Source: Patescibacteria group bacterium
GTDB taxonomy: Bacteria > Patescibacteriota > Minisyncoccia > JAHIHE01 > JAGLIN01
Assembly: GCA_029210775.1 (NCBI GenBank)
Contig: JARGGI010000008.1
Span: forward strand, 1 to 41,237
Direction of reading: 5' to 3'
DNA: 41,237 nucleotides
Below the pieces are notes generated by a model, which saw nothing but the letters and a program-made list of their open reading frames with translations, ran no database searches and had not been told where the DNA came from. The translations under genes and the position numbers were made by a program. Positions 180-38,510 of this stretch are shown here, piece by piece (within the stretch, counting starts at the first letter, position 1; the number at the start of each line of letters is the position of its first letter).

Positions 180-413
180 ATGAAAAATATAAAGAAAAAA
201 GTAGTAGATTATCTGCTACTAAAAAGCGGCTTTGCATTTATGCACACAGAAGTGCAATATATATGCAAAAAGTGCGGAGAGCACTATGAACTCAAGTGTG
301 AACAGGATCTTGAGTTTTGCTCTAATTGTGGCGGTAGAAATACCGACACAAAAAAGAAAAATGAAATTGTTGTGAGAAGAAGTTTGAAGGATTGTCTATC
401 CGACTTTCTTTAA
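180..413 (+). CDS. Small zinc-ribbon protein
   Basis: CxxC...CxxC (CKKCGEHY..FCSNCG); SD AAGGAGGAGG at 167-176 directly after a 10-bp hairpin (137-146/158-167). Confidence 0.8.
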   Translation: MKNIKKKVVDYLLLKSGFAFMHTEVQYICKKCGEHYELKCEQDLEFCSNCGGRNTDTKKKNEIVVRRSLKDCLSDFL

Positions 414-642
414 ACCTCTTCCCTTTTTCCAAGTTTATCTTTTGAAAAAATCCCCCCAACCCCCTTTGTTAAATGGGGAGTAATAAAAAAGGTAAATTTA
501 AAAAAGCTTCAGATCTCAAAACTTCGGAATCAGAAGTGAAATCACAAAAGGCTCCACATTAACACACCCCCGCCCTTCTCAAGAGGGGAACTCAGAAACT
601 ATGGAGCCAACGATGGTGCCAAATGAATGTTCTTTAACAAAA

Positions 643-2160: not shown

Positions 2161-2175
2161 GAGGTGAAAAATATT

Positions 2176-2745
2176 ATGAGATTGTTTAAAAGAAAAAAAC
2201 CCGAGACTCTCGGGGAATTGATTGAAACAAGAAATTTAAAAGAAATCCTTGAAAGAGGATTTCTGAAAGAGCTTTTAAAAGAAGCAGAAAAAAACGAGAA
2301 AGCGTTCTTTCTGCTTCTGCGAGTAGCTTCTGAAAATTCAGAAGCTCAAAAGGCAGTCAACGATATAACCCGAAGCGGAGCAAATTTTGCTCTCTCGGGA
2401 ATAACGAGAGAGGAGATAACCTTACCTCCTCTCGAAAAAATTAATCTCCTCTTTAAGGAGATTGATAGGGCAGAAAAGCCCGTAGATTTATCACATCGCC
2501 ATTATCAGGAGATGTGTGAAAACGATCTTGAGGCAAAAAAAGCTCTTGTTAGTTTTTATCTAACAAGAGCAAAGAAGATCGTAGAGGATAGGGAAAATAA
2601 TCCATTTCAAAACTCTTTTGAAATGGATTATGAAATGAGTAACATAACGCGGTATCTTCTGGAAATTCCTGTACCAGAAGTACAAGAGTTTTTTGAAACC
2701 TCAAAGCTTTTTCTGAAATATTCAGAAAAGATTGGGTCTCAGTAA
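2176..2745 (+). CDS. Hypothetical protein, hairpin-coded
   Basis: ORF track starts at GTG 2164, but ATG 2176 fits SD GGAGG at 2160-2164 better. Coding sequence is saturated with perfect inverted repeats. Confidence 0.75.
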   Translation: MRLFKRKKPETLGELIETRNLKEILERGFLKELLKEAEKNEKAFFLLLRVASENSEAQKAVNDITRSGANFALSGITREEITLPPLEKINLLFKEIDRAEKPVDLSHRHYQEMCENDLEAKKALVSFYLTRAKKIVEDRENNPFQNSFEMDYEMSNITRYLLEIPVPEVQEFFETSKLFLKYSEKIGSQ

Positions 2746-2791
2746 CCTTGTTCCTCTTTAAAATTTCTTGATTATTTAACTTCTCACTCCA

Positions 2792-2870
2792 CTTTTTCCA
2801 AACTTATTTTCTAAAAATCCTCCTAACCCCCCTTGTAAAAAGGGAGTGGTGAAAAGTAAGTTTAGAAAAG
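2792..2870 (+). terminator. Post-gene long hairpin (family copy 2)
   Basis: CTTTTTCCAAACTTATTTTC ... GAAAAGTAAGTTTAGAAAAG with inner CCCTT/AAGGG. Confidence 0.6.
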
Positions 2871-2971: not shown

Positions 2972-4591
2972 TTATTCTTTACCCAAAAGCGATTTTAGTT
3001 TGTCTAAAGCAGTTTTCTCGTCGATAATATTAGCTTTCTCATTATCAATTAGCGATTGGAAAATCATATCTTTTGTAAAATCTTTATCATCTCTAAGATC
3101 GTTAGCCAATCCGATTATTTCTCCCCAAGCTGGTCCGGAATTTTTAAAGCCAAAAGCGAATAAGTCCTTGCCACCGATAAGATCTGCGGGCTTGCTTTTT
3201 TCCACTCCATATTCTCTGGCTTTATCAACAAACCATTTTCCGGCTGGAAAATTTTCAGGCATCATCAGCTGTTCAGGGTTTTCCGGATTAGAAAAAGGAC
3301 CGCGACCACGATGATCGGCAGCGCCAGTTAAAGCCAATTCCCTCATAGTCGCTGGATGGATTTTTTTTGCTAATCGATTAAAAGCTCCTTTGGAAACTTC
3401 TTGATTTCGGATAGTTGAATCAATAAACCACATACTGGGAACCAAATGATTGGTAACTAAGTTGACAACCTTGCCTCGCGTCAGTCCATCAACTCCGATA
3501 TCCGATAAAAACTTTTTTGTCGGTTCTTCGCCAGCTTGCTCGTGGCCATGAGAAGTTATCCGCATTTCCCCATCCTTTTCAATTGTTTCAGTTGTGGATT
3601 TTTTGCCGAGATCGTGACACAAAGATGAAAGCATAATTATTAAAGTTGTTTCTTCTTCTAAGTCATATTCGCGGCAAAGTTTGGTAGCCTCGTCAACACT
3701 CATCAGGGTGTGCATCCAAACATCGCCTTCCGGATGCCATTCTTTCTCTTGAGGAACTTTTGTCAAATCGTCAAATTCCGGATGCAATTCTTTGAAAATT
3801 CCAATTGATTTCGCGGCTATTAGCCCCAGAGACGGCTTGTCTGATTTAATCAAAAGCTTTTTCCATTCTTCAATAATTCTTGATTTCGGCTCTTCTTTTA
3901 ATTCAGGAACCATTGTTTTCATAAGCTCCAGACTTCTTTTTTCTATTTCCAAGCCAAAACGACCAACAAATTGCGGAGCCCGTTCTGCTCTCACAGGATC
4001 GTCTTGAAACTTTTCAAAATCAGTGACTCTTAAAATTCTATTTTCAATATCTTGAAGACCTTTAAATGGATCATGAAGTTCGCCCGTCAAAGGATTGCTA
4101 GCCATTGAGTTCATCGTAAAATCACGGCGGCTCGCGGCATCTTTTATAGACATATTGGGATCTGTTTTCACATCAAACCCTTTGTGCCCTTCTCCAGCTT
4201 TTGAATCAGTCCTTGGCAAGGACACATCAATGTCTATGCCATTAGGAAGAAAAACTTTTATAATGCCAAATGCTTTTCCAACCTCTGATACTTTTCCGAA
4301 TTTTTCAATAATCTTTGCAATTTCGGGCGCTTCCAGCTTATAAACTTCTAAATCAAAGTCCTTGGGAATTTTATTGAAAAACATATCCCTAACGCTTCCC
4401 CCGACTAGCAATGCCTCTCCGCCCGCTTCTTTGATAGCTTGGCTGATTTCCAAAACTTTTTCATACGCCTCGGCATATTCTTCATAACCAAACTCCCGAA
4501 ATCTTTTTATCATCTCCTCTGGCTTTAACATTTCTTTTATTTCGCCGTTAGCGGATTCTTGCCACTCCCTATTTTCTTGGTCTATTGCCAT
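2972..4591 (-). CDS. tRNA nucleotidyltransferase / poly(A) polymerase family with HD domain (second paralogue in window)
   Basis: LLVGGSVRDMFFNKIPKDFDLEVY, RRDFTMNSMA, HD-domain HTLMSVDEAT...LCHDLGK. Confidence 0.88.
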   Translation of the reverse strand: MAIDQENREWQESANGEIKEMLKPEEMIKRFREFGYEEYAEAYEKVLEISQAIKEAGGEALLVGGSVRDMFFNKIPKDFDLEVYKLEAPEIAKIIEKFGKVSEVGKAFGIIKVFLPNGIDIDVSLPRTDSKAGEGHKGFDVKTDPNMSIKDAASRRDFTMNSMASNPLTGELHDPFKGLQDIENRILRVTDFEKFQDDPVRAERAPQFVGRFGLEIEKRSLELMKTMVPELKEEPKSRIIEEWKKLLIKSDKPSLGLIAAKSIGIFKELHPEFDDLTKVPQEKEWHPEGDVWMHTLMSVDEATKLCREYDLEEETTLIIMLSSLCHDLGKKSTTETIEKDGEMRITSHGHEQAGEEPTKKFLSDIGVDGLTRGKVVNLVTNHLVPSMWFIDSTIRNQEVSKGAFNRLAKKIHPATMRELALTGAADHRGRGPFSNPENPEQLMMPENFPAGKWFVDKAREYGVEKSKPADLIGGKDLFAFGFKNSGPAWGEIIGLANDLRDDKDFTKDMIFQSLIDNEKANIIDEKTALDKLKSLLGKE

Positions 4592-4678: not shown

Positions 4679-4786
4679 TTTTAACAACAAGCGTCATGTG
4701 CCCGATTAAAATCAAATCGGACAAATCACGCTTCTTGCTAAAAATATGAGAGAAGCATTGCACATTGAAAAAGGGGAAGAAAAATA
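4679..4786 (+). promoter_or_regulatory. Leader element copy B
   Basis: TTTTAACAACAAGCGTCATGTGCCCGATT...AATCGGAC...CACGCTTCTTGCTAAAAATATGAG...GAAAAAGGGGAAGAAAAATA; resembles 2006-2105. Confidence 0.65.
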
Positions 4787-4808
4787 TTCGATGCTTTTAA
4801 AGGCTTAA
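4746..4808 (+). CDS. Possible 20-aa leader peptide (MREALHIEKGEEKYSMLLKA)
   Basis: ATG at the same leader position as 2066; stop lies inside the 5' side of the hairpin preceding ORF 4863. Confidence 0.35.
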   Translation: MREALHIEKGEEKYSMLLKA

Positions 4809-4850
4809 ATTGATTGTAAATTTTTATGATCAATTTCGGCCTTTAAAGGC
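4793..4850 (+). promoter_or_regulatory. Long hairpin abutting the SD of ORF 4863
   Basis: GCTTTTAAAGGC (4793-4804)/GCCTTTAAAGGC (4839-4850) with inner AAATTGAT (4807-4814)/ATCAATTT (4829-4836); AGGAGG follows at once. Confidence 0.9.
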
Positions 4851-4862
4851 AGGAGGAAAGAA

Positions 4863-5219
4863 ATGAAATCAAAAATTACAGAAATTTATTTTGAAAATTC
4901 TGTGACGGCAAAGACAAAATTGCCTTTGTCGGCAAAATTAGTCGTACTATCTTCAGAAAACCTCAATTCCGAGGAAATAAAAAAAATAATTGAGGCAGGA
5001 TTAAATTTGGGGGTCCACCTTGAGTGGGCCGGAAACCCAGATAAAGAAGGGGAAAATTTCCGAAAAAAATTTCATCTTTCGGAAATTCCAGAAGAATTTC
5101 TAAAGGAGTATTCTTCTTTAGAAATAAAAGAAATTCTCCGGGAAAGGAAGTTAATTCCTGGAAAATTTATCAAAGAGGAGCAAAAAAGGCTCCTCGGAAA
5201 AATTGTGGAGATATTTTAA
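4863..5219 (+). CDS. Hypothetical protein, hairpin-coded
   Basis: SD AGGAGG upstream; 118 aa; coding sequence composed of successive inverted repeats. Confidence 0.75.
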   Translation: MKSKITEIYFENSVTAKTKLPLSAKLVVLSSENLNSEEIKKIIEAGLNLGVHLEWAGNPDKEGENFRKKFHLSEIPEEFLKEYSSLEIKEILRERKLIPGKFIKEEQKRLLGKIVEIF

Positions 5220-5460
5220 TCTCCACTCCCTAAATCTATGAGCAAGAAGAATGACGAATAATATGAGAAATATAAAATAATATTTTGATTGTTTCGACTT
5301 CTTGCTCCACTTTTTCCAAGTTTACAAATAAGATTTGCAGACTTAGAAAAAATTTTTTAGCACCGAGTAATCTGTTTGTTTTTTTGGAATTAAAGCAAAT
5401 AGTTTATTCCTTGTTAAATTAGAAATAATTTTAACGAGGGATTCCTGAATTCATTTCAGG

Positions 5461-5613: not shown

Positions 5614-8600
5614 ATGAAAAGAATAGTAGTAATTGCTCCAACGCGGAGCACTTGTTTAAATATTTCAATGGTGCTAAATAATGGCGCCATTCCCTTGACC
5701 TTGCTTATGCAAGAGAATGGGGAAGAAATTTTTGAGGCCGTTGATGAACTGGAAACCGGCGGATTCGGCGTTGTCGCCGGAACTGGTACGGGTAAAACTG
5801 TGTCGTTGCGCGACATTGCCGGAAAAGTTCTCGGCGAAAAATTGCGGGTTGATGTCGTCACCCGCGAGCAGGAAGCAACAAAGCACACTTGGACATGCAA
5901 TGTACTTGTGGTGACTCCTGGAGTCGCTCTGCATTGGCTGAAATCTCAAGTAATAACGAAAGATGATTTAATCGTTATTGATGAGATACACCAAACAAGC
6001 GAGCATCTGGAATTCTCTATGGCGCTTGCCAAGAGAGCCGGGTGCAAGTTTGTCTGGATGTCAGCGACCATTGATCCGAGTATATACTCGGAATATTTGG
6101 GAGCTAACACAGTCATAGAGTGTTCAGCTTTTGATCCGTCAAAAAGGTCAAAGGTTGAATGCTTATGGAAAACGCCAGAGAATTTTCTTTCTTCCGAGGT
6201 GAATAATTTCATTGAGGAAGAAAGAGCGGTCGCCGTGTTCGTGCCCACTCGAGAGATGGCTGAAAGGTTGTCTCGAGAGTATGGTAATCGCGAAGGTCTC
6301 TACTGTGATTTCTATCATGGTGGAGAAAAGGCCGAGAAACTTCGCCAATTCTTAAAGGGCGATGTTCCCAAACCCTTTATGGTCTTTATGACCACTGCCG
6401 GCGCGAGTTCCCTGAATATTCTGGGGCTTGATACCGTGGTAATAGTGGACGAAATGTATAAGGAAATTGTCCACTCCGGTGTTCGTGTTCTGGAAAAAGT
6501 AAACCTTGGGAACAACGAGCTTTTGCAGATGGGAGGCAGGGTGAATGGAAGAACAGAGAACTCTAAAATTTATATTTTGGGTTCCCGTTCAATAGATTTC
6601 CACAACCTGAAACCTACTGCACCGGAGTTCGTGCTGGGTGGCGATTTGCAGCAGGTGGCTCTCACTTGCGCTCGTCTTGGCGTAAACGCTAGTGAGCTTG
6701 ATCTGATCGGCTCAATTGATTCAGCTCGCTATGAAAAAGAGGTAACTCGTTTCAAAGCACGCGGAATTATTGAAGCCGAGAGTGATAAGCTTACGGCTTA
6801 TGGTAAGAAAGTGGAGCGTTTGCCCATCGATCCTTCTTGGGCGGAGTTGGTGGCTCAAGCTCGGAACAGCAATAATCGGGACTTGCTGGACACTGTGGTA
6901 GTCAGCGCATGCGCTGAATCGCTTTATTCTTTGCTTCGCAATAACGCGAATTTGAGCGGAGTAAAGATAAGCGGAAGCGATCAGCTCACCGCCTATAACA
7001 TCGTGGTATCCGCCCTTAACCAGTTCGGCTTTTTCCGCAAATCAAATGGTGGAGGAGCTGAGTATGGTTTTCAGGGAGATCGGTTTAAAAAAAGATATAA
7101 TAAGAAAACCGGTCAAACTGAAAAAAATATGGGCGGATTTGTCCAGTGGTGCGACGACAACGGATTTAATCCGAAAGCCATTAAGGAAGTGGCGATCGCG
7201 ATGAAGTCCGTTTATCGCCAGTTACGAATGCAAATGCCAGTTCCACATGATTTGCAGATCATCAGTGAAAACGATGAGATGCATAAAAAGTTTGTGGATC
7301 TGCTCGCTAGAACGCAGTCCCTGGATTTTGTTCACGATGAGCAGAATTCCCAGATTGGAACTGTTTGGCGAGCAAAGCACTCGCTCACAAGCGGTGTGAG
7401 AGTGCTTGGCAAAATCCGCCACTGGACCGACAAGCGCGGTCGTCAGCGGGCGACGATTGAGGGAACGGAAGTTCCCGAAGATCTATTCAAGATTTACGCT
7501 GACAAAAAACCTGATTCTGTTTATCAGGTTAATGATGAAGGCGTGAGGATTGAATTCAAGTCGTCGTTTGCCGGCGAGTCAATCGGGTCGCTTGTAGAAG
7601 CGGTTGACGATTCCGAAGTTCCAGCGGAATTAATTGAGCAAGCGGAGGAGAAATTCATTTCCTCTCTCTTGTATCAGCTAATTTCTCCTGAATTTGCGGA
7701 TCAGAACCGCGAAATTCGCGAGCAATCCAGCCAACTCCGCACCCGTTCCGGTGGAGCCGTGGAAAAAATTTCCGAGTCCGATGAGCGAAAGCTCTATGAG
7801 CAGGAGTTCGCGGGCAAGGGGATTATCTCCGTGCGGTCCTTGCGGTCAGCCATTGAATCCGGAAATATAAATCCGGACAATCTGCTTCTGAAGCTGGAAG
7901 ATTTTATTCCAGTAGAAGAGCAGGAAAAAATCATGGCTGACAATCCGGACACCGTAAAGGTTAAGAATGAAATCTTGACCGTTGAATACGGTGGCGGAAG
8001 TTGGGGCGATGAATTCTTCTGTCGCGCAAGCGTGACAGAAGAATTCGCGCGGACCACCAAAGTGGAAGCGGTAACGCTTCCCGGCGGTCGGACTGTGGAG
8101 CTCCGCTGCGAAGGTCATTCCGCCAAGACCTTTTCTGAACTGGTTGAAAAACTGGAACAAAAGAGGATTGAGAAGGCATGGTCGGAGAAGCGCTCTGAGC
8201 TGGAATCTTCTTCGTGGATTTCTAATCCCGAGGAGATATTCCCGCTCTTGCCCAAAATCTTAACCGCGGTAGAAATTACGCGGAAAGATAACGGGCAGGG
8301 CGAGCCGGTTTACGGTTACTTCTCGCTTGTTTCTGACTCTGATCTTGATTGTAAAATTAAGATAAGAGAAACGGAAGAAGAAGCGAGGAAGGAAACCAAG
8401 ACTGGACTTGAGCGTTTGTTCCGCAAGGCAACCCGCGAATTCAGGAGAATCTCCGGCGAAGAGCCATGGGATAATTCTGAACTGCGCGAAGCCCTCAAAA
8501 ACCGTCTTGAGATGCTTTTGAAAGCGCAAATGGAAAATCTGACCGCTGAAAATTTCAGCGAGCGGGTTGAAACCATTAAGGCGGAAGCGGAGAAAATTAA

Positions 8601-9282
8601 GTCCGAGATCGTCGGCAAAGCTTCAGAAGCAAAGAAGCTTATCGCTGATACAGAAGAGGGAATTGAAAAGCAAATTAGTGCTATTGAAAACCCATCTTTT
8701 GTGGAAGCGGAAGTGAAGCAAGCTCACGAAGCTCTTCAAGAAGCCAAAGATAAATTAAAATCTGCGGCTTTTGAAGAAGTTTTGGGAGCTTGTAAAAAAG
8801 CTTCTGAAATCGCCAGTCAACTGGCCAAGCTTTATTCAGTCAGGACGGAGAATGTTCTGATTGGATTTGAAGCTTGGGATCGAGATGGCGGAGTGAACAA
8901 TAATGGCCATGGCTGGGTAGTCAGACCGGATGGGTCGCTCCGCGAAAAAGATAGTGATGATGTCAAAAGACATAAGTCTGATGGCACTTATCGCTGGGAC
9001 GTAGTGCAAGCCGAAGAGCTTGCACTACGCTGGAGGTGTAGTAGCATAAGGGATGTGGCTGGAAACAGCACATTTGAAGTTGTAAAACTTCCCTTAGGCG
9101 ATTGCACAGAAGTGCAACTGGCGACGGTTGCACGGATAGAAAAAGAGATCAAAGCCCCAAGAGGCTCGTTCGGTCTCGAAGGAAATAATAAGGAGGTAAA
9201 AAAAGAAAAGAAAGAAAGTGAAGCAGAAATAGACCCGTTGAAAATTTTGCAGCAAGGCAAAAAATTCACTCTGGGTCTATAA
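5614..9282 (+). CDS. DExH-box helicase, 1222 aa, with long coiled-coil C-terminal part
   Basis: Walker A GTGTGKT, motif II DEIH, SAT motif (WMSATID), motif VI-like LLQMGGRVNGR. Confidence 0.85.
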   Translation: MKRIVVIAPTRSTCLNISMVLNNGAIPLTLLMQENGEEIFEAVDELETGGFGVVAGTGTGKTVSLRDIAGKVLGEKLRVDVVTREQEATKHTWTCNVLVVTPGVALHWLKSQVITKDDLIVIDEIHQTSEHLEFSMALAKRAGCKFVWMSATIDPSIYSEYLGANTVIECSAFDPSKRSKVECLWKTPENFLSSEVNNFIEEERAVAVFVPTREMAERLSREYGNREGLYCDFYHGGEKAEKLRQFLKGDVPKPFMVFMTTAGASSLNILGLDTVVIVDEMYKEIVHSGVRVLEKVNLGNNELLQMGGRVNGRTENSKIYILGSRSIDFHNLKPTAPEFVLGGDLQQVALTCARLGVNASELDLIGSIDSARYEKEVTRFKARGIIEAESDKLTAYGKKVERLPIDPSWAELVAQARNSNNRDLLDTVVVSACAESLYSLLRNNANLSGVKISGSDQLTAYNIVVSALNQFGFFRKSNGGGAEYGFQGDRFKKRYNKKTGQTEKNMGGFVQWCDDNGFNPKAIKEVAIAMKSVYRQLRMQMPVPHDLQIISENDEMHKKFVDLLARTQSLDFVHDEQNSQIGTVWRAKHSLTSGVRVLGKIRHWTDKRGRQRATIEGTEVPEDLFKIYADKKPDSVYQVNDEGVRIEFKSSFAGESIGSLVEAVDDSEVPAELIEQAEEKFISSLLYQLISPEFADQNREIREQSSQLRTRSGGAVEKISESDERKLYEQEFAGKGIISVRSLRSAIESGNINPDNLLLKLEDFIPVEEQEKIMADNPDTVKVKNEILTVEYGGGSWGDEFFCRASVTEEFARTTKVEAVTLPGGRTVELRCEGHSAKTFSELVEKLEQKRIEKAWSEKRSELESSSWISNPEEIFPLLPKILTAVEITRKDNGQGEPVYGYFSLVSDSDLDCKIKIRETEEEARKETKTGLERLFRKATREFRRISGEEPWDNSELREALKNRLEMLLKAQMENLTAENFSERVETIKAEAEKIKSEIVGKASEAKKLIADTEEGIEKQISAIENPSFVEAEVKQAHEALQEAKDKLKSAAFEEVLGACKKASEIASQLAKLYSVRTENVLIGFEAWDRDGGVNNNGHGWVVRPDGSLREKDSDDVKRHKSDGTYRWDVVQAEELALRWRCSSIRDVAGNSTFEVVKLPLGDCTEVQLATVARIEKEIKAPRGSFGLEGNNKEVKKEKKESEAEIDPLKILQQGKKFTLGL

Positions 9283-9359
9283 GAACGGACAAAAAAATCC
9301 GTTCAAATAAAAATTAAATTTTCATAGGAGCGCCAAGTCGCACAATTTCGCGCTCCTAA

Positions 9360-9400
9360 CTTTTTCCAAGTTTATCTTTTGAAAGGTAAATTTAGAAAAG
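9360..9400 (+). terminator. Post-gene long hairpin (family copy 4)
   Basis: CTTTTTCCAAGTTTATC ... GGTAAATTTAGAAAAG; related hairpins near 423-506, 2792-2870 and 5310-5354. Confidence 0.6.
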
Positions 9401-9454: not shown

Positions 9455-9531
9455 TGGAGTTCTACTGTAAATAGGTGTGATATGATATTGCGGTCAAATT
9501 CCGCATTCGCTACATTTGACACTCCAAGAAA
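9455..9531. repeat. 77-bp direct repeat, right copy
   Basis: Identical to 1-77. Confidence 0.95.
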
Positions 9532-17510: not shown

Positions 17511-19355
17511 TTATTTTTTCAGAACCGACAAAAATGCTTCTTGAGGAATTTCAACTCTGCCAAAAGATTTCATCTTCTTTTTTCCTTTTCTCTGTTTTTC
17601 AAGGAGCTTTCTTTTTCGCGAAACATCTCCGCCATAAAGTTTTGCAGTGACATCTTTGCGGAATGGGTTTATTGTTTCTCTTGCGATTACTTTTCCGCCT
17701 ATTGTAGCTTGGAGTGAAACAGCAAAATTTTGGCGGGGAATTGCGGTTTTGAGTTTTGCAACAATCTTTTTTCCTTCTTCTTGGCTTTGGTCTTGAGGAA
17801 CAATTCTTGAAAAAGCTTCAACTTTTTCACTTGCGACTAAAACATCCAATTTGATTAAATTCCCAGTTCTAAATCCTATCGGTTCATAATTCATTGAAGC
17901 AAAACCGCTTGAAATGCTTTTTAGGCTGTCGTAAAAATCAACAATAATATTAATTAAAGGAACTTCATAATTTAATATAACTCTGTCTTCTGAGAGATAG
18001 TTTGTGCTTTGATAAATTGCTCGAGAATTTTCTGCAAGCTTCATAACTGCACCGATTTTGTCTTTTGGCAAAATGATTTCAAGTTTTGCCCATGGTTCTT
18101 TTATATTTTCGATATGAGAAGGATCTGGCATTTCTGTTGGAGAATAAATCGTAATTTCTTTTCCATCTTTTTTATTTATGATGTATGAAACCGACGGAGT
18201 TGTGATGACAAGATTCATATCATATTCTCTGGAAAGTCTTTCACTTATAATTTCAAGATGAAGCATCCCAAGAAATCCACAAATAAAACCGCGTCCAAGA
18301 GCGCTTGAACTTTCGGGTTCATATGAAAGAGATGCATCGTTGAGTTTTAATTTTTCTAGAGCGTCGCGGAGATTTGGATATTCATCACCTTCAATTGGAT
18401 AGATACTGGCAAAAACGGTCGGATTTACTTCTTTATATCCAGGAAGCGGTTTGATTAGTTTTTCAATTTCATCAGAATCTTTGAAAGATGATTCGTATTT
18501 TGTAATCGTATCTCCAACACGACATTTTCCAACTTCTTTCAATCCCGTTGCAATATATCCGACATCACCTGCTTGAAGAAAGTCGGTTTTAACAAGTCCT
18601 GGTGTGATGACTCCCAGCTCGATAATTTCAGATTTTGCCTTTGCTTTTAAAAAATATATTTGATCTCCACTATTGATTTTTCCGTCAATAATTCTTACTT
18701 GCGCAATAACTCCTTTATATGAATCAAAATATGAATCAAAAATCAAAGCTCTCAATGGTTGATTTGGATCTCCGCTTGGAGCTGGAATTTTTTTGATTAT
18801 TTCTTCAAGAACTTTTTCAACATTTTCTCCTGTTTTTGCTGAAATTTTGATTATCTCATCTTCTTTTGTGCCAATTAAATCGCTTATTTCCTTTGAAGCT
18901 TCTGCTATCATTGCATTTGGCATATCAATTTTGTTGATAACTGGTATGATTTCCAAATTTTGTTCCATTGCCAAGTATAAATTTGCCAAAGTTTGCGCTT
19001 GAATTCCTTGAGTTGCATCAACGAGTAAAATAGCTCCTTCAACTGCAGCAAGAGAACGAGACACTTCGTATGCAAAATCAACATGACCCGGAGTGTCAAT
19101 CAGGTTGAGAATATATTCATTTCCATTCAGCTTGTATTTCATTTTTGCCGGTTGAAGTTTGATTGTGATTCCTCTTTCTCTTTCTATATCCATTTGATCA
19201 AGAAGTTGAGCTTTCATTTTTCGATCTTCAACTGTTTTTGTGATTTCCAAAAAACGGTCAGCAAGTGTTGACTTTCCGTGGTCAATGTGGGCAATTATGC
19301 AGAAATTTCTGGTATTTTGTTGGGACATTTGGTTTATATTATGGTTATTTGTCAT
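17511..19355 (-). CDS. lepA: Translation elongation factor 4
   Basis: NFCIIAHIDHGKSTLADR, DTPGHVDF, C-terminal LepA motifs (GGDVSRKRKLLEKQRKGKKKMK). Confidence 0.97.
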   Translation of the reverse strand: MTNNHNINQMSQQNTRNFCIIAHIDHGKSTLADRFLEITKTVEDRKMKAQLLDQMDIERERGITIKLQPAKMKYKLNGNEYILNLIDTPGHVDFAYEVSRSLAAVEGAILLVDATQGIQAQTLANLYLAMEQNLEIIPVINKIDMPNAMIAEASKEISDLIGTKEDEIIKISAKTGENVEKVLEEIIKKIPAPSGDPNQPLRALIFDSYFDSYKGVIAQVRIIDGKINSGDQIYFLKAKAKSEIIELGVITPGLVKTDFLQAGDVGYIATGLKEVGKCRVGDTITKYESSFKDSDEIEKLIKPLPGYKEVNPTVFASIYPIEGDEYPNLRDALEKLKLNDASLSYEPESSSALGRGFICGFLGMLHLEIISERLSREYDMNLVITTPSVSYIINKKDGKEITIYSPTEMPDPSHIENIKEPWAKLEIILPKDKIGAVMKLAENSRAIYQSTNYLSEDRVILNYEVPLINIIVDFYDSLKSISSGFASMNYEPIGFRTGNLIKLDVLVASEKVEAFSRIVPQDQSQEEGKKIVAKLKTAIPRQNFAVSLQATIGGKVIARETINPFRKDVTAKLYGGDVSRKRKLLEKQRKGKKKMKSFGRVEIPQEAFLSVLKK

Positions 19356-31017: not shown

Positions 31018-31232
31018 AGATCTTTGGTGGCGAAGATATCCATTGGTCAGTGATTGTTCTGCAAATTCGAATTTTGATGAAGTGTTTATATGTAATAAAG
31101 TTGCCAAAAGATGTATGTTTAGATAGTTTATCTTTATATCCTGTGGATAACTTTTTAATAATATATTGATATTGTCTAAAATGCTTTATAATAAGCACTA
31201 ATATGATATTAATAAAGTTTAATATTTTTCTA

Positions 31233-31260
31233 TTGACAAATATTTTTTATCCTGTATACT
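31233..31260 (+). promoter_or_regulatory. Near-consensus sigma70 promoter
   Basis: TTGACA (31233-31238), 16-nt spacer, TATACT (31255-31260). Confidence 0.7.
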
Positions 31261-31266
31261 GTTATA

Positions 31267-32485
31267 TAGAATTATTAAAAAATCTATGACAACATTAAAT
31301 TCACAATCAATGCGAATGAAAGAATCCCAGATAACTGGCTATTTTGTGATTGTGAAAATTAGCCTACTAATTAAGTAGTTTGCTTTTGATTTAGTTTAAG
31401 GCTCGCAAGAGTTAAATAAAACAAAACCAAAAGCAACCTACCAAATAGTAGGCTTTTTGTTAAATATAAACAAAAATTGATCTTTAAAAAAGATGTTTTA
31501 GACTTACTGTAAGCTTATTAAGGGATTTTATAAAAAGTTTTCAGTAGGTCTAAAATGGCCAGCATTTATTTGGAATACCTCCTATTCCCATTCCCGTCAT
31601 AAGGATAAATGCTGGCCATAATAATTAAAAAAGGTCTTTGGACCACGCTTGCGAGAGGATATGGGTCATTATGAATCATAATGAAATTAAATTTACAAAA
31701 AACAACACTAAAAAACCCATACTCCTCTCGCACCTCCTTTCTTTATTTTTCTTAGCTAATTGTGTTTAATAATTTTGAATATAATTATTGGAGAGAAATG
31801 CTCGTTTGTTTAAAACATAGACAAACGATGAGAATACTTTGAACCATGAAAGTATTCCTTTGCCGGGAATGACTGAAGAAATATAATTCTTCAAGACTCA
31901 CAAAAGCTAAGACCAAAAAAGCTTTTGAAAAAAACAGGGGCGGTATAAAATTTATAAAAAAATATTATTAAGTTTATTAAACCGCCCCTCTTCTCACCTC
32001 TTTTAATTTTTTTTTAAATTCAATTTCTGTTTATAAAAATTTGTAAATAGAAATTGCTTCATAAGTGATCCTTATGAAGTATATGGGAGATCCTTTCAAA
32101 AGAAGATCTCTCACAATTAAGAGAGCGGAAAAATTTGGAAAAAAGCCAAATAGAAATTATAAATAATAATTTTCTTTCCGCTCTCTCATCTTCATCTAAT
32201 AAAAAATGGAGGGAAATAATGAATTATAATGAAATGATAAGCATTCTAATTTTAATTTATTGTAAGAAAGAAACTGATAATTAAAAACATCTTTCTTACT
32301 CTTTTTTAAATCAAACAATTTAAATATACACCAGAAAATAAAATGAACTTAGCCAACAAAACACAACAAAATATAATCATTAGCATTATTATCAGCCACG
32401 GGGCTTTGCCTTGAAGGTTGATTTGATGATTTAGATTTAACCTGCAAAGCAAAATCCCGAACAAAAAATGTTCGGGATTTTTTGT
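31267..32485 (+). ncRNA. Candidate large structured non-coding RNA / hairpin array
   Basis: About a dozen long, often nested stems between a good promoter and a strong terminator; no ORF of 60 aa or more in the track between 31198 and 32610. Confidence 0.5.
32453..32485 (+). terminator. Rho-independent terminator
   Basis: AATCCCGAAC-aaaaaat-GTTCGGGATT followed by T-run. Confidence 0.85.
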
Positions 32486-32633
32486 TATTTGAAAAATATA
32501 TATTAAATTTTAAGTGTCATTGTGAAATTATTGAAAAATTGTTTTAAAAAATCTCACGACGACATTTGGTTGTCTAAAAATAAAAATAAATATTTACAAC
32601 ATATAAATTTTGAATTTAAGGAGGAACAGAAAA

Positions 32634-32888
32634 TTGAGTGATAATACATGGACCAGTGAGGGAGATAAAATTCTCCTAAATGTTGAAATGAATGGTGGGT
32701 TGCAAGATGTTATTATAAAATTAAATAAAATCGTTGGTGTAAAAGGAGAAAAATGGGATTTTGTTGGAAAACCTAATTTGTATGTATTTCCACAAATTAA
32801 AGTTATAAAATCTCAAAAAGAAGGTATCCTTGAAATTTTAAACAAGGAAGGATTTTTACATTATCATAAGGGGTTTAATAATAAGTAA
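32634..32888 (+). CDS. Hypothetical protein
   Basis: TTG start with AAGGAGG at 32618-32624; the 32610 start in the track lies before the SD. Confidence 0.55.
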   Translation: MSDNTWTSEGDKILLNVEMNGGLQDVIIKLNKIVGVKGEKWDFVGKPNLYVFPQIKVIKSQKEGILEILNKEGFLHYHKGFNNK

Positions 32889-36877: not shown

Positions 36878-38320
36878 TTATTTTACCCAAAATTTCTTCT
36901 TATCTTTCAAATCCTCTTCTTCTTTTTTTTCCTCAATAACTTTTTCACTTTTCTTAATTTCTTCAGCAGATAATTTATTTAGTTCCTGAACTCTTTTTTC
37001 AAGATGATTCTTTGTGTTTCTCTTTGGATTTTCAATGACTTCAGAGAGAAGAACCTTAAGAATTGCTCCAATCTTCGGACCAGGTTTTGCATTCAGAATT
37101 TTCATAATGTCTTGTCCATTAATTTTTAACATTTTAGCAGATATCGGATCTTTACTCACTTTTTCAATTAGATATTCAAGATGTCTTAATTTATATGGTT
37201 TAGCTTTTGGAACTCCGCTTCCAAGACGATCTGCAATTCTAAGATCCATCAAATCTTTTAAATTTTCTTTTCCAGTTCTTTTTATTAATCTTCTGATTCC
37301 AGCTTCTGAAACTTCGTCAACATTATAATAAAACATATGATTTTTCACGAGCAATTCAACTTTTTCTATAACTTTGTTTGAAAATTTCAGACGAGTTAGA
37401 ATTTTTTTTGTGAATTTTGCACCGACATAATCATGATTATAAAAAGTGCTGTCAGGTCCTGTTCCAGCTTTGGTTTGCGGTTTAGCTATGTCATGAAGAA
37501 GTGATGCCAAGCGAACTTCAAGTTTCTGACTTGGGCAGTGCTGAAGTGAGAGAATTAGATGTTCATAAATTGTATAAGTGTGATGACGATTTTGGTCAAC
37601 GCCGATACCATCTTCAAGTTCTGGGAGGATATATTTCAAAAGTTTTGATTTTCGAAGAAGTTCAATTCCTTCATAAGCTTGATTTGAAAGAATAATTTTT
37701 TCAAATTCATCGCGAATTCTTTCTTTGGAAACATATTTCAAAAGATTATGATTTTTTTCAATAGAATTAAATGTATTCTTATTAATTTCAAAATTTAGCT
37801 GGCAAGAAAAACGGATTGCCCGAAGCATTCGTAGTGCATCTTCTCTAAATCTTTTGTCTGGATTTCCAACTGCTTTTATAATTTTCTTCTCTAAATCTTT
37901 TTGACTTTCAAACAAATCAATTATTGCGTAACTTTTATGTGTCATTTTTAGTGCCATTGCATTAATTGTGAAATCTCTTCTTTTTAAATCTTCTTTTAAA
38001 TTTGGAGTAAATTTAATTTCATCGGGATGTCGATTGTCGCTGTATCCAACATCAATTCTATATGTTGTAATTTCAATATTTTTCAAATTGTCATCTAATG
38101 TATTATTGTTTATGACTGTCACTGTACCAAATTTATTGTTATAAAAACTCTCTGGAAATATTTTTTGAATTTCTTCTGGTTTGGCATTTGTTGTAATATC
38201 CCAATCTTTCGGAATTTTTCCAAGCAAAAAGTCTCGGACACTTCCACCGACAACATGGGCTTCATATCCTTTCTTTTCTAGTTTTTCTATGATTGTTTTG
38301 ATTTCATTTGGGATATTCAT
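36878..38320 (-). CDS. cca: CCA tRNA nucleotidyltransferase
   Basis: AHVVGGSVRDFLLGKIPKDWDITT, KRRDFTINAMAL, HD domain LASLLHDIAKP. Confidence 0.93.
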   Translation of the reverse strand: MNIPNEIKTIIEKLEKKGYEAHVVGGSVRDFLLGKIPKDWDITTNAKPEEIQKIFPESFYNNKFGTVTVINNNTLDDNLKNIEITTYRIDVGYSDNRHPDEIKFTPNLKEDLKRRDFTINAMALKMTHKSYAIIDLFESQKDLEKKIIKAVGNPDKRFREDALRMLRAIRFSCQLNFEINKNTFNSIEKNHNLLKYVSKERIRDEFEKIILSNQAYEGIELLRKSKLLKYILPELEDGIGVDQNRHHTYTIYEHLILSLQHCPSQKLEVRLASLLHDIAKPQTKAGTGPDSTFYNHDYVGAKFTKKILTRLKFSNKVIEKVELLVKNHMFYYNVDEVSEAGIRRLIKRTGKENLKDLMDLRIADRLGSGVPKAKPYKLRHLEYLIEKVSKDPISAKMLKINGQDIMKILNAKPGPKIGAILKVLLSEVIENPKRNTKNHLEKRVQELNKLSAEEIKKSEKVIEEKKEEEDLKDKKKFWVK

Positions 38321-38352
38321 GATTTTAGTTTAGCATAGAAAATTCTAAAATG

Positions 38353-38400
38353 TAAAATGTATAATATTTCTCACGGCCGTGAGAAATATTATACATTTTA
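38353..38400. repeat. 48-bp perfect palindrome without spacer
   Basis: TAAAATGTATAATATTTCTCACGG|CCGTGAGAAATATTATACATTTTA. Confidence 0.95.
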
Positions 38401-38510
38401 AAGATTGGTTGATATTGAATTTGGCTTTGATTTTTGATGTTTTTAATAAGGGAAGTTGACTTATTATCAAGCATTCTGTTATATTTAATAAGCATTGTAT
38501 TATAATTTTC

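Follow-up and report, generated by a model that had tools for sequence, protein, structure and literature searches.

Analysis of a 41,237-nt stretch of DNA (the window; contig JARGGI010000008.1) from a Patescibacteria group bacterium showed that the coding sequence at 4863-5219 is predicted to fold into a run of local hairpins, with a strength well beyond that expected from its protein sequence and codon usage. This gene is one of four consecutive genes of the same kind, and similarly folded genes were found in other genomes of the class, some of them in whole operons. Here the genome of the window is called G000, and other G numbers denote the other genomes compared. We consider it somewhat probable that these units represent an undescribed class of bacterial transcription unit, in which mRNAs are built like rRNA: the leader carries an antitermination signal, the coding body is folded end to end into hairpins, and a trailer stem follows. 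In this proposal the structure is kept by synonymous-codon selection, and the units make up accessory operons of one family, which occupy a recurrent position in the chromosome.

Hairpins in the 4863-5219 gene

The original prediction had described this gene as the third hairpin-coded gene of the window, tiled by nine consecutive stems. All nine pairs of arms were present, to the nucleotide where the prediction had placed them. In the base-pair ensemble (pairing span <=100 nt), eight of the nine stems had a mean pair probability of 0.56-1.00. The remaining stem, GACAAA/TTTGTC (4913-4930), has its arms in place, but its pairing was not supported, as in the ensemble a longer hairpin that overlaps it, CGGCAAAG...CTTTGTCG (4906-4931), takes its place. 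The stop codon was correctly assigned to the last hairpin, with TAA (5217-5219) at the junction of the loop and the 3' arm. The claim that stems tile the whole coding sequence slightly overstated the coverage, with gaps, for example, at 4996-5011 and 5031-5054. Paired nucleotides made up 55% of the coding sequence versus 52% in codon shuffles. Since the paired fraction is barely above that of the shuffles, the gene is set apart by stronger, more local stems and not by more paired bases.

The MFE of the coding sequence was -104.7 kcal/mol, compared with -73.0 +/- 5.0 kcal/mol for 300 synonymous-codon permutations, which preserve both the protein and the codon usage (z -6.3; none of the 300 as low). 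The z score was -7.1 against whole-codon permutations (-66.2 +/- 5.4) and -8.2 against codon shuffles when the pairing span was limited to <=100 nt, while the region 4780-5330 gave a z score of -9.4 against dinucleotide shuffles. The synonymous-codon and dinucleotide controls thus rejected an artefact of composition or codon usage. A lack of excess over codon-shuffled controls would have refuted the original prediction; the excess was present (z -6.3 to -8.2), and the description of the gene as hairpin-coded survived. The z score was only -2.3 in a coarser 240-nt tiling, because tile edges cut the hairpins, and the whole-gene tests are the relevant ones.

A cluster of intrinsic terminators was rejected as an explanation, since no terminator-like site (a G+C-rich hairpin with a U-tract) was found on the sense strand within 4863-5219. 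A known structured RNA family was also rejected, since no Rfam family matched above its gathering score in the block and only tRNAs were over the threshold. The 118-aa protein (P0001) had no Pfam match and no convincing homologue in 98 relatives or in viral contigs. Its fold was not predictable by AlphaFold (pLDDT 43).

The block in the window and its repeated unit

The window scan and the per-gene test identified four consecutive hairpin-tiled genes on the + strand (Table 1). The gene at 4863-5219 is indeed the third, and the helicase gene follows it as a fourth. The - strand genes interleaved with them, an AbiE pair (643-1939) and a CCA-adding/poly(A)-polymerase-like gene (2972-4591), had z scores near 0, and 14 control genes from the contigs of the 24 hairpin-tiled coding sequences compared below had a mean z score of -0.46 without strand bias. 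A calibrated 120-nt scan sampled about 0.9 Mb of the genome (1.17 Mb) in stretches and found no comparable hairpin block elsewhere in that sample, with only short isolated matches outside the window. An exact 77-nt repeat occurs at 1-77, the left end of the contig, and at 9455-9531, inside the block. The contig probably ends at a repeat, so the hairpin block may extend beyond the window.

Table 1. Positions of the hairpin-tiled genes and their associated elements in the window
Feature	Position	Strand	Properties	Basis
boxA-like GTTCTTTAAAA	82..92	+	fits GYTCTTTAANA (source in text)	
First hairpin-tiled gene	180..413	+	77-aa zinc-ribbon protein; z -4.7, -3.9 (latter from the span <=100-nt series)	
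3' element after first gene	418..437	+		sequence recurrence
boxA-like variant GTTCGTTGAAA	2077..2087	+	upstream of second gene	sequence
Second hairpin-tiled gene	2164..2745	+	193-aa orphan; z -7.5, -9.0	
3' element after second gene	2787..2806	+		sequence recurrence
boxA-like GTTCTTTAAAA	2960..2970	+	fits GYTCTTTAANA	motif search
Upstream conserved element TTTTAACAACAASCGT...ACGCTTCTTGYTAAAAA	4680..4745	+	common to 2007-2066 upstream of second gene	repeat search
boxA-like motif GCACATTGAAA	4760..4770	+		motif search
Leader hairpin	4792..4851	+	29-nt arms, 83% complementary; directly upstream of Shine-Dalgarno	repeat search
Shine-Dalgarno AGGAGG	4851..4856	+		sequence
Third hairpin-tiled gene	4863..5219	+	118 aa (P0001, orphan)	translation, codon shuffles
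Nine local hairpins in a run	4876..5226	+	last (5205-5226) contains the stop codon	arms located, pair probabilities
3' hairpin GAGCAAGAAG/CTTCTTGCTC	5240..5307	+		MFE structure
Conserved 3' element CTCCACTTTTTCCAAGTTTA...GACTTAGAAAAA	5305..5351	+		recurrence, covariation in related G002 units, duplex energies
boxA-like GTTCATTGAAA	5463..5473	+	ahead of helicase gene	motif search
Fourth hairpin-tiled gene	5614..9282	+	1222-aa HrpA-like DExH helicase; z -8.9, -14.9; homologues also hairpin-tiled	
3' element after fourth gene	9355..9374	+		sequence recurrence

The units share a layout of a boxA-like signal, a leader hairpin, a strong Shine-Dalgarno sequence, a hairpin-tiled coding sequence and a conserved 3' stem-loop. 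The boxA-like motif G[CT][AT]C[AT]TT[AG]AAA was found 17 times in the sense orientation and never in the antisense orientation in three blocks (36.9 kb), which is about 28 times the density outside the block in this genome (0.16 per 10 kb-strand). One of the 17 sites (768), inside the - strand AbiEi gene, is probably a chance match. The sites at 82 and 2960 fit the gamma-proteobacterial boxA consensus GYTCTTTAANA of PMC5725501. The 16S leader of the host carries GTTCATTAACA, which is similar to the boxA-like motif, about 210 nt upstream of the 16S gene.

At the other end of the unit, CTCCACTTTTTCCAAGTTTA or a close variant lies downstream of every G000 hairpin gene. In the third unit, calculated duplex energies indicated that the CTTCTT..CCACTTTTTC part of the 3' element could pair with GAAAAAGGGGAAG after boxA in a leader-trailer helix. 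The corresponding duplex of the second unit, between the boxA-like leader and the 3' element near 2751-2800, was -21.7 kcal/mol. Cognate leader-trailer pairing was stronger than pairing with mismatched partners (permutation p 0.006). Only seven of the 13 units reached -14.7 kcal/mol or better, and the helix was weak or absent in six.

The 3' element forms two stems in nine G002 copies, with compensatory changes at columns 12-34, 14-32, 16-30 and 55-63, and a related element also lies between genes in both G002 and G009. The 14-nt core of the element was concentrated in the family of the window, where a reversed control had no match. Outside that family and its order, the motif TTTTTCCAAGTTTA alone mostly marked no hairpin block. 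The 3' motif of the G000/G002/G009 type was not found in G040 or G041, though both contain hairpin-tiled genes.

Other features of the window were also observed. A second gene resembling PAP/CCA-adding enzymes (36878-38320) lies in the same 41-kb contig as the one at 2972-4591, and the two have diverged to 27% identity. Between this second gene and a tRNA-Arg there is a very strong inverted repeat on both strands (38281-38460; z -8.6/-10.9), which is probably a bidirectional terminator. A non-coding array of strong hairpins at 31021-32640 (120-nt z scores down to -8.6) follows a sigma-70-like promoter (TTGACA...TATACT near 31235) and stops just before a 92-aa open reading frame (32610-32888) that has a strong Shine-Dalgarno sequence and no Pfam match. 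The array looks like a long structured leader without a hairpin-tiled coding sequence.

Hairpin-tiled genes in other genomes

The 1222-aa helicase contains PF00270, PF00271 and PF11898 and an extra C-terminal domain. It resembles HrpA-type DExH RNA helicases in its DEAD/Helicase_C domains, with weak DUF3418 similarity, but differs from them in the extra domain, which is common to otherwise unrelated hairpin-tiled genes, and in having a hairpin-tiled mRNA. Relatives were found in four other genomes of the class. The relative in G040 (Candidatus Spechtbacteria, contig MHOE01000030) has 48% identity, and that in G002 has 42% identity and is encoded by split genes. The relatives in G009 (38%) and G041 (33%) correspond to the helicase C-terminal domain only, in G009 fused to other sequence. 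A scan of genome contigs for helicase homologues returned the Spechtbacteria homologue as the only match, and a search for phage relatives of the helicase found none. All of the helicase-family genes in these four genomes were hairpin-tiled, with codon-shuffle z scores of about -7 to -12, with DNA that has diverged far. HrpA relatives in G025 and G042 were less structured, with z scores of -6.6 and -2.6, respectively; at -6.6, G025 is intermediate and not a clean background.

An uncharacterised domain of about 100 aa (W.R.GG..N...WV...DG...FEVV.LP...TE.Q) is common to the helicase C terminus (window 8830-9180) and two otherwise different hairpin-tiled genes (L051 7748-8050 and L052 4180-4473). 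It was found in only three of the 293 genomes of the class.

It is conceivable that the hairpins mainly throttle elongating ribosomes, forming a structure-gated regulon that is unlocked by the HrpA-like helicase of the locus or by a stress state. The G000 and G040 loci each contain a gene for such a helicase, itself hairpin-tiled, which G002 has in split form, and strong Shine-Dalgarno sequences adjoin the leader hairpins. However, these Shine-Dalgarno sequences are not buried in a local stem, the G009 operon has only the fused C-terminal domain, and several loci with a single hairpin gene have no helicase among the proteins scanned. We regard a translational lock of this kind as possible but unlikely.

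Larger blocks were found in G002 (L049, 1-11.4 kb, + strand) and G009 (L051, 4.8-16.3 kb, - strand). Each is one-directional and holds about 10-14 hairpin-tiled genes, with a helicase-family gene among them, while the neighbouring genes outside the blocks have normal folding. The cargo in G002 includes GNAT, radical SAM and SAVED proteins and the split helicase, and that in G009 includes Csx3, Csx3-AAA, HD and RavA/ViaA-type MoxR and VWA proteins. The G009 block has a sigma-70-like promoter, identified by eye (TTGACA...TATGAT near 18,010, minus strand), and about 1.7 kb of structured leader lies downstream of it. More hairpin-tiled genes were found in G003, G008, G010, G013 and G018. Less structured relatives of the cargo include RavA/ViaA of a Moorella phage (z -2.1/-2.7) and Salmonella ViaA (z -1.2). 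Csx3 and the Csx3-AAA-like protein are encoded by two separate hairpin-tiled genes in G009 (L051 15034-15597 and 15961-16266).

The cargo bears on whether the tiling lets mRNAs of defence or counter-defence genes survive RNA-cleaving immunity or toxins, such as type III CRISPR or endoribonuclease toxins, that destroy unstructured RNA. Csx3 (E 2.8e-27) and Csx3-AAA (3.4e-62) in G009, SAVED (3.8e-17) and a viperin-like radical SAM protein (9e-11) in G002, and the AbiE pair between the G000 hairpin genes are consistent with this idea. On the other hand, most of the cargo proteins are either uncharacterised or of kinds that do not resemble defence proteins (GNAT, zinc ribbon, RavA/ViaA, methyltransferase). 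With no data on RNase resistance, we consider evasion of this sort improbable as the main explanation. G005 carries the AbiEi/AbiEii-like pair at the equivalent location, with 78-84% identity.

The chromosomal setting was similar in several genomes. The block is convergent with a conserved trypsin-like/DUF5656/clpB cluster in G000 and G009. In G005 it lies just past the AbiE pair that adjoins this cluster, and in G002 it is about 18 kb from the cluster, on the same contig and in the same orientation. Several other family members have the cluster without a hairpin gene directly adjoining it. The block is thus accessory and occupies a recurrent position in the chromosome.

The structure of the L049 and L051 blocks spans their whole one-directional length, including non-coding leaders. 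This recalls the GORS of positive-strand RNA viruses, in which the coding strand folds locally throughout, beyond the effect of codon usage or composition, and density is conserved more than individual hairpins. One reading is an element that acts at the RNA level: its transcript would be what is copied, packaged or transferred, much as in RNA viruses that have genome-scale ordered RNA structure, and the DNA copy would merely be the source of that transcript. However, no integrase, transposase, polymerase, reverse transcriptase or capsid/virion protein was recognised among the proteins scanned in the blocks and flanks, and ordinary - strand genes interrupt the G000 block. Unlike the viral genomes, these are DNA-encoded bacterial operons, syntenic beside clpB-DUF5656-trypsin in several genera as expected for a chromosomal operon. 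We find an RNA-level element very improbable.

Strand bias and conservation of the structure

We compared the two strands of 24 hairpin-tiled coding sequences from eight genomes. The mean z score was -8.5 for the sense strand versus -6.1 for the antisense strand, and in all but one of the 24 (23) the sense strand had the larger excess (Wilcoxon p 6e-7). Since most of these coding sequences were picked because an earlier structure scan had flagged them, the mean z scores are somewhat inflated; the genes found through helicase homology (G040, G002, G009 and G041) had a strand bias of the same sign. A simple count of perfect Watson-Crick, G.U and A.C stems went in the same direction but was weak, so the energy-based test was used.

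A DNA palindrome favours both strands equally except for wobble pairs, and the larger sense-strand excess is thus a sign that selection acts on the RNA and not on the DNA. The alternative would be a DNA-level cause, either quasi-palindromes produced by template switching or single-stranded DNA hairpins used in recombination or cassette mobility. Antisense folding also beats the shuffles, as with any inverted repeat, and the repeated intergenic units separate genes much as cassette boundaries would. But a larger sense excess in 23 genes is impossible for perfect DNA palindromes, the interleaved - strand genes are unaffected, and the stems track transcription units. For an integron-type cassette array in particular, no integrase was seen in the flanking genes scanned. 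A DNA-level cause is disfavoured and, in our judgment, has hardly any chance of being correct.

The G005 orthologue of the 77-aa gene, in the same neighbourhood beside AbiE, has 62% amino acid identity and is also hairpin-tiled (z -4.2). The folding excess was -8.6 kcal/100 nt in G005 versus -8.4 kcal/100 nt in G000, and alignment of the folds showed that some hairpins were kept while others were replaced. As individual hairpins are only partly conserved between the orthologues, no specific hairpin is functionally pinned. In G002, two paralogous copies with 76% identity had fewer broken pairs than expected from randomly placed substitutions (p 0.024 and 0.006), whereas their double compensations exceeded expectation in only one direction. 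The covariation between the G002 paralogues is suggestive support for kept structure. It appears that hairpin density, more than any single hairpin, is held.

An rRNA-like model for structured mRNAs

The hairpin excess over codon shuffles, the larger sense-strand excess, its recurrence in homologues and relatives, the enrichment and orientation of the boxA-like motif, and the covarying 3' stems are observations. Nus-factor loading, shielding from Rho and RNases, and the role of the helicase are inferred; there are no binding data for boxA, and the motif is short. The folding is predicted, without expression or probing data. With these limits, we give about an even chance to the explanation that the loci are accessory operons of small-genome Paceibacteria-type bacteria, in which an rRNA-like transcription chassis produces structure-shielded mRNAs.

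In this model, synonymous codons would be selected so that the mRNA, including its coding part, folds into tandem local hairpins. The boxA-like site would load the antitermination factors NusB/NusE onto RNA polymerase, rendering it processive and Rho-resistant through a long and strongly folded RNA. The transcript would probably be poorly covered by ribosomes, and its own hairpins would keep the RNA compact and block Rho loading and single-strand-specific RNases, as for rRNA. In several units, the 3' stem-loop is predicted to pair back with the post-boxA sequence, like the leader-trailer helix of pre-rRNA. Translation would be slow, with hairpins melted one by one, perhaps with help from the DExH helicase that several of the loci encode.

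The boxA-like leader motif, the structured leader and the long, highly folded transcript are shared with rRNA operon antitermination (boxB-boxA-boxC, NusA/B/E/G, SuhB). The complementarity between the sequence just after boxA and the 3' trailer, strong in only about half of the units, resembles that of pre-16S RNA, where the trailer forms a helix with boxC, which lies downstream of boxA (PMC10250234). The units differ from rRNA operons in that the transcript is protein coding, with ribosome-binding sites, the boxA-like motifs recur within a block, and the trailer pairing is not universal. A boxA upstream of a protein-coding gene is also known from boxA-regulated mRNAs, such as those of suhB and a ParE-like toxin gene (PMC5725501); there boxA regulates one gene, and the available part of that source does not describe hairpin tiling throughout the coding sequence.

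The open-access literature thus contains rRNA antitermination, boxA-regulated single mRNAs and viral GORS, and we found in it no precedent for cellular bacterial operons that combine hairpin tiling throughout the coding sequence with boxA. Subscription journals and most preprints were outside the search, and a prior description is not excluded.

Functional structure in bacterial coding sequences is usually regarded as confined to a small number of regulatory sites, chiefly close to the start codon. Here, whole genes and operons appear to be co-coded for protein and dense RNA folding. This property occurs in different genera, in genes whose cargo proteins are unrelated, and is linked to an rRNA-style transcription signal. 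If the model is correct, these operons would provide a natural system for studying how RNA polymerase, Rho, RNases, helicases and ribosomes handle a fully structured mRNA, and would suggest that RNA folding can hold synonymous sites across an entire cellular operon.
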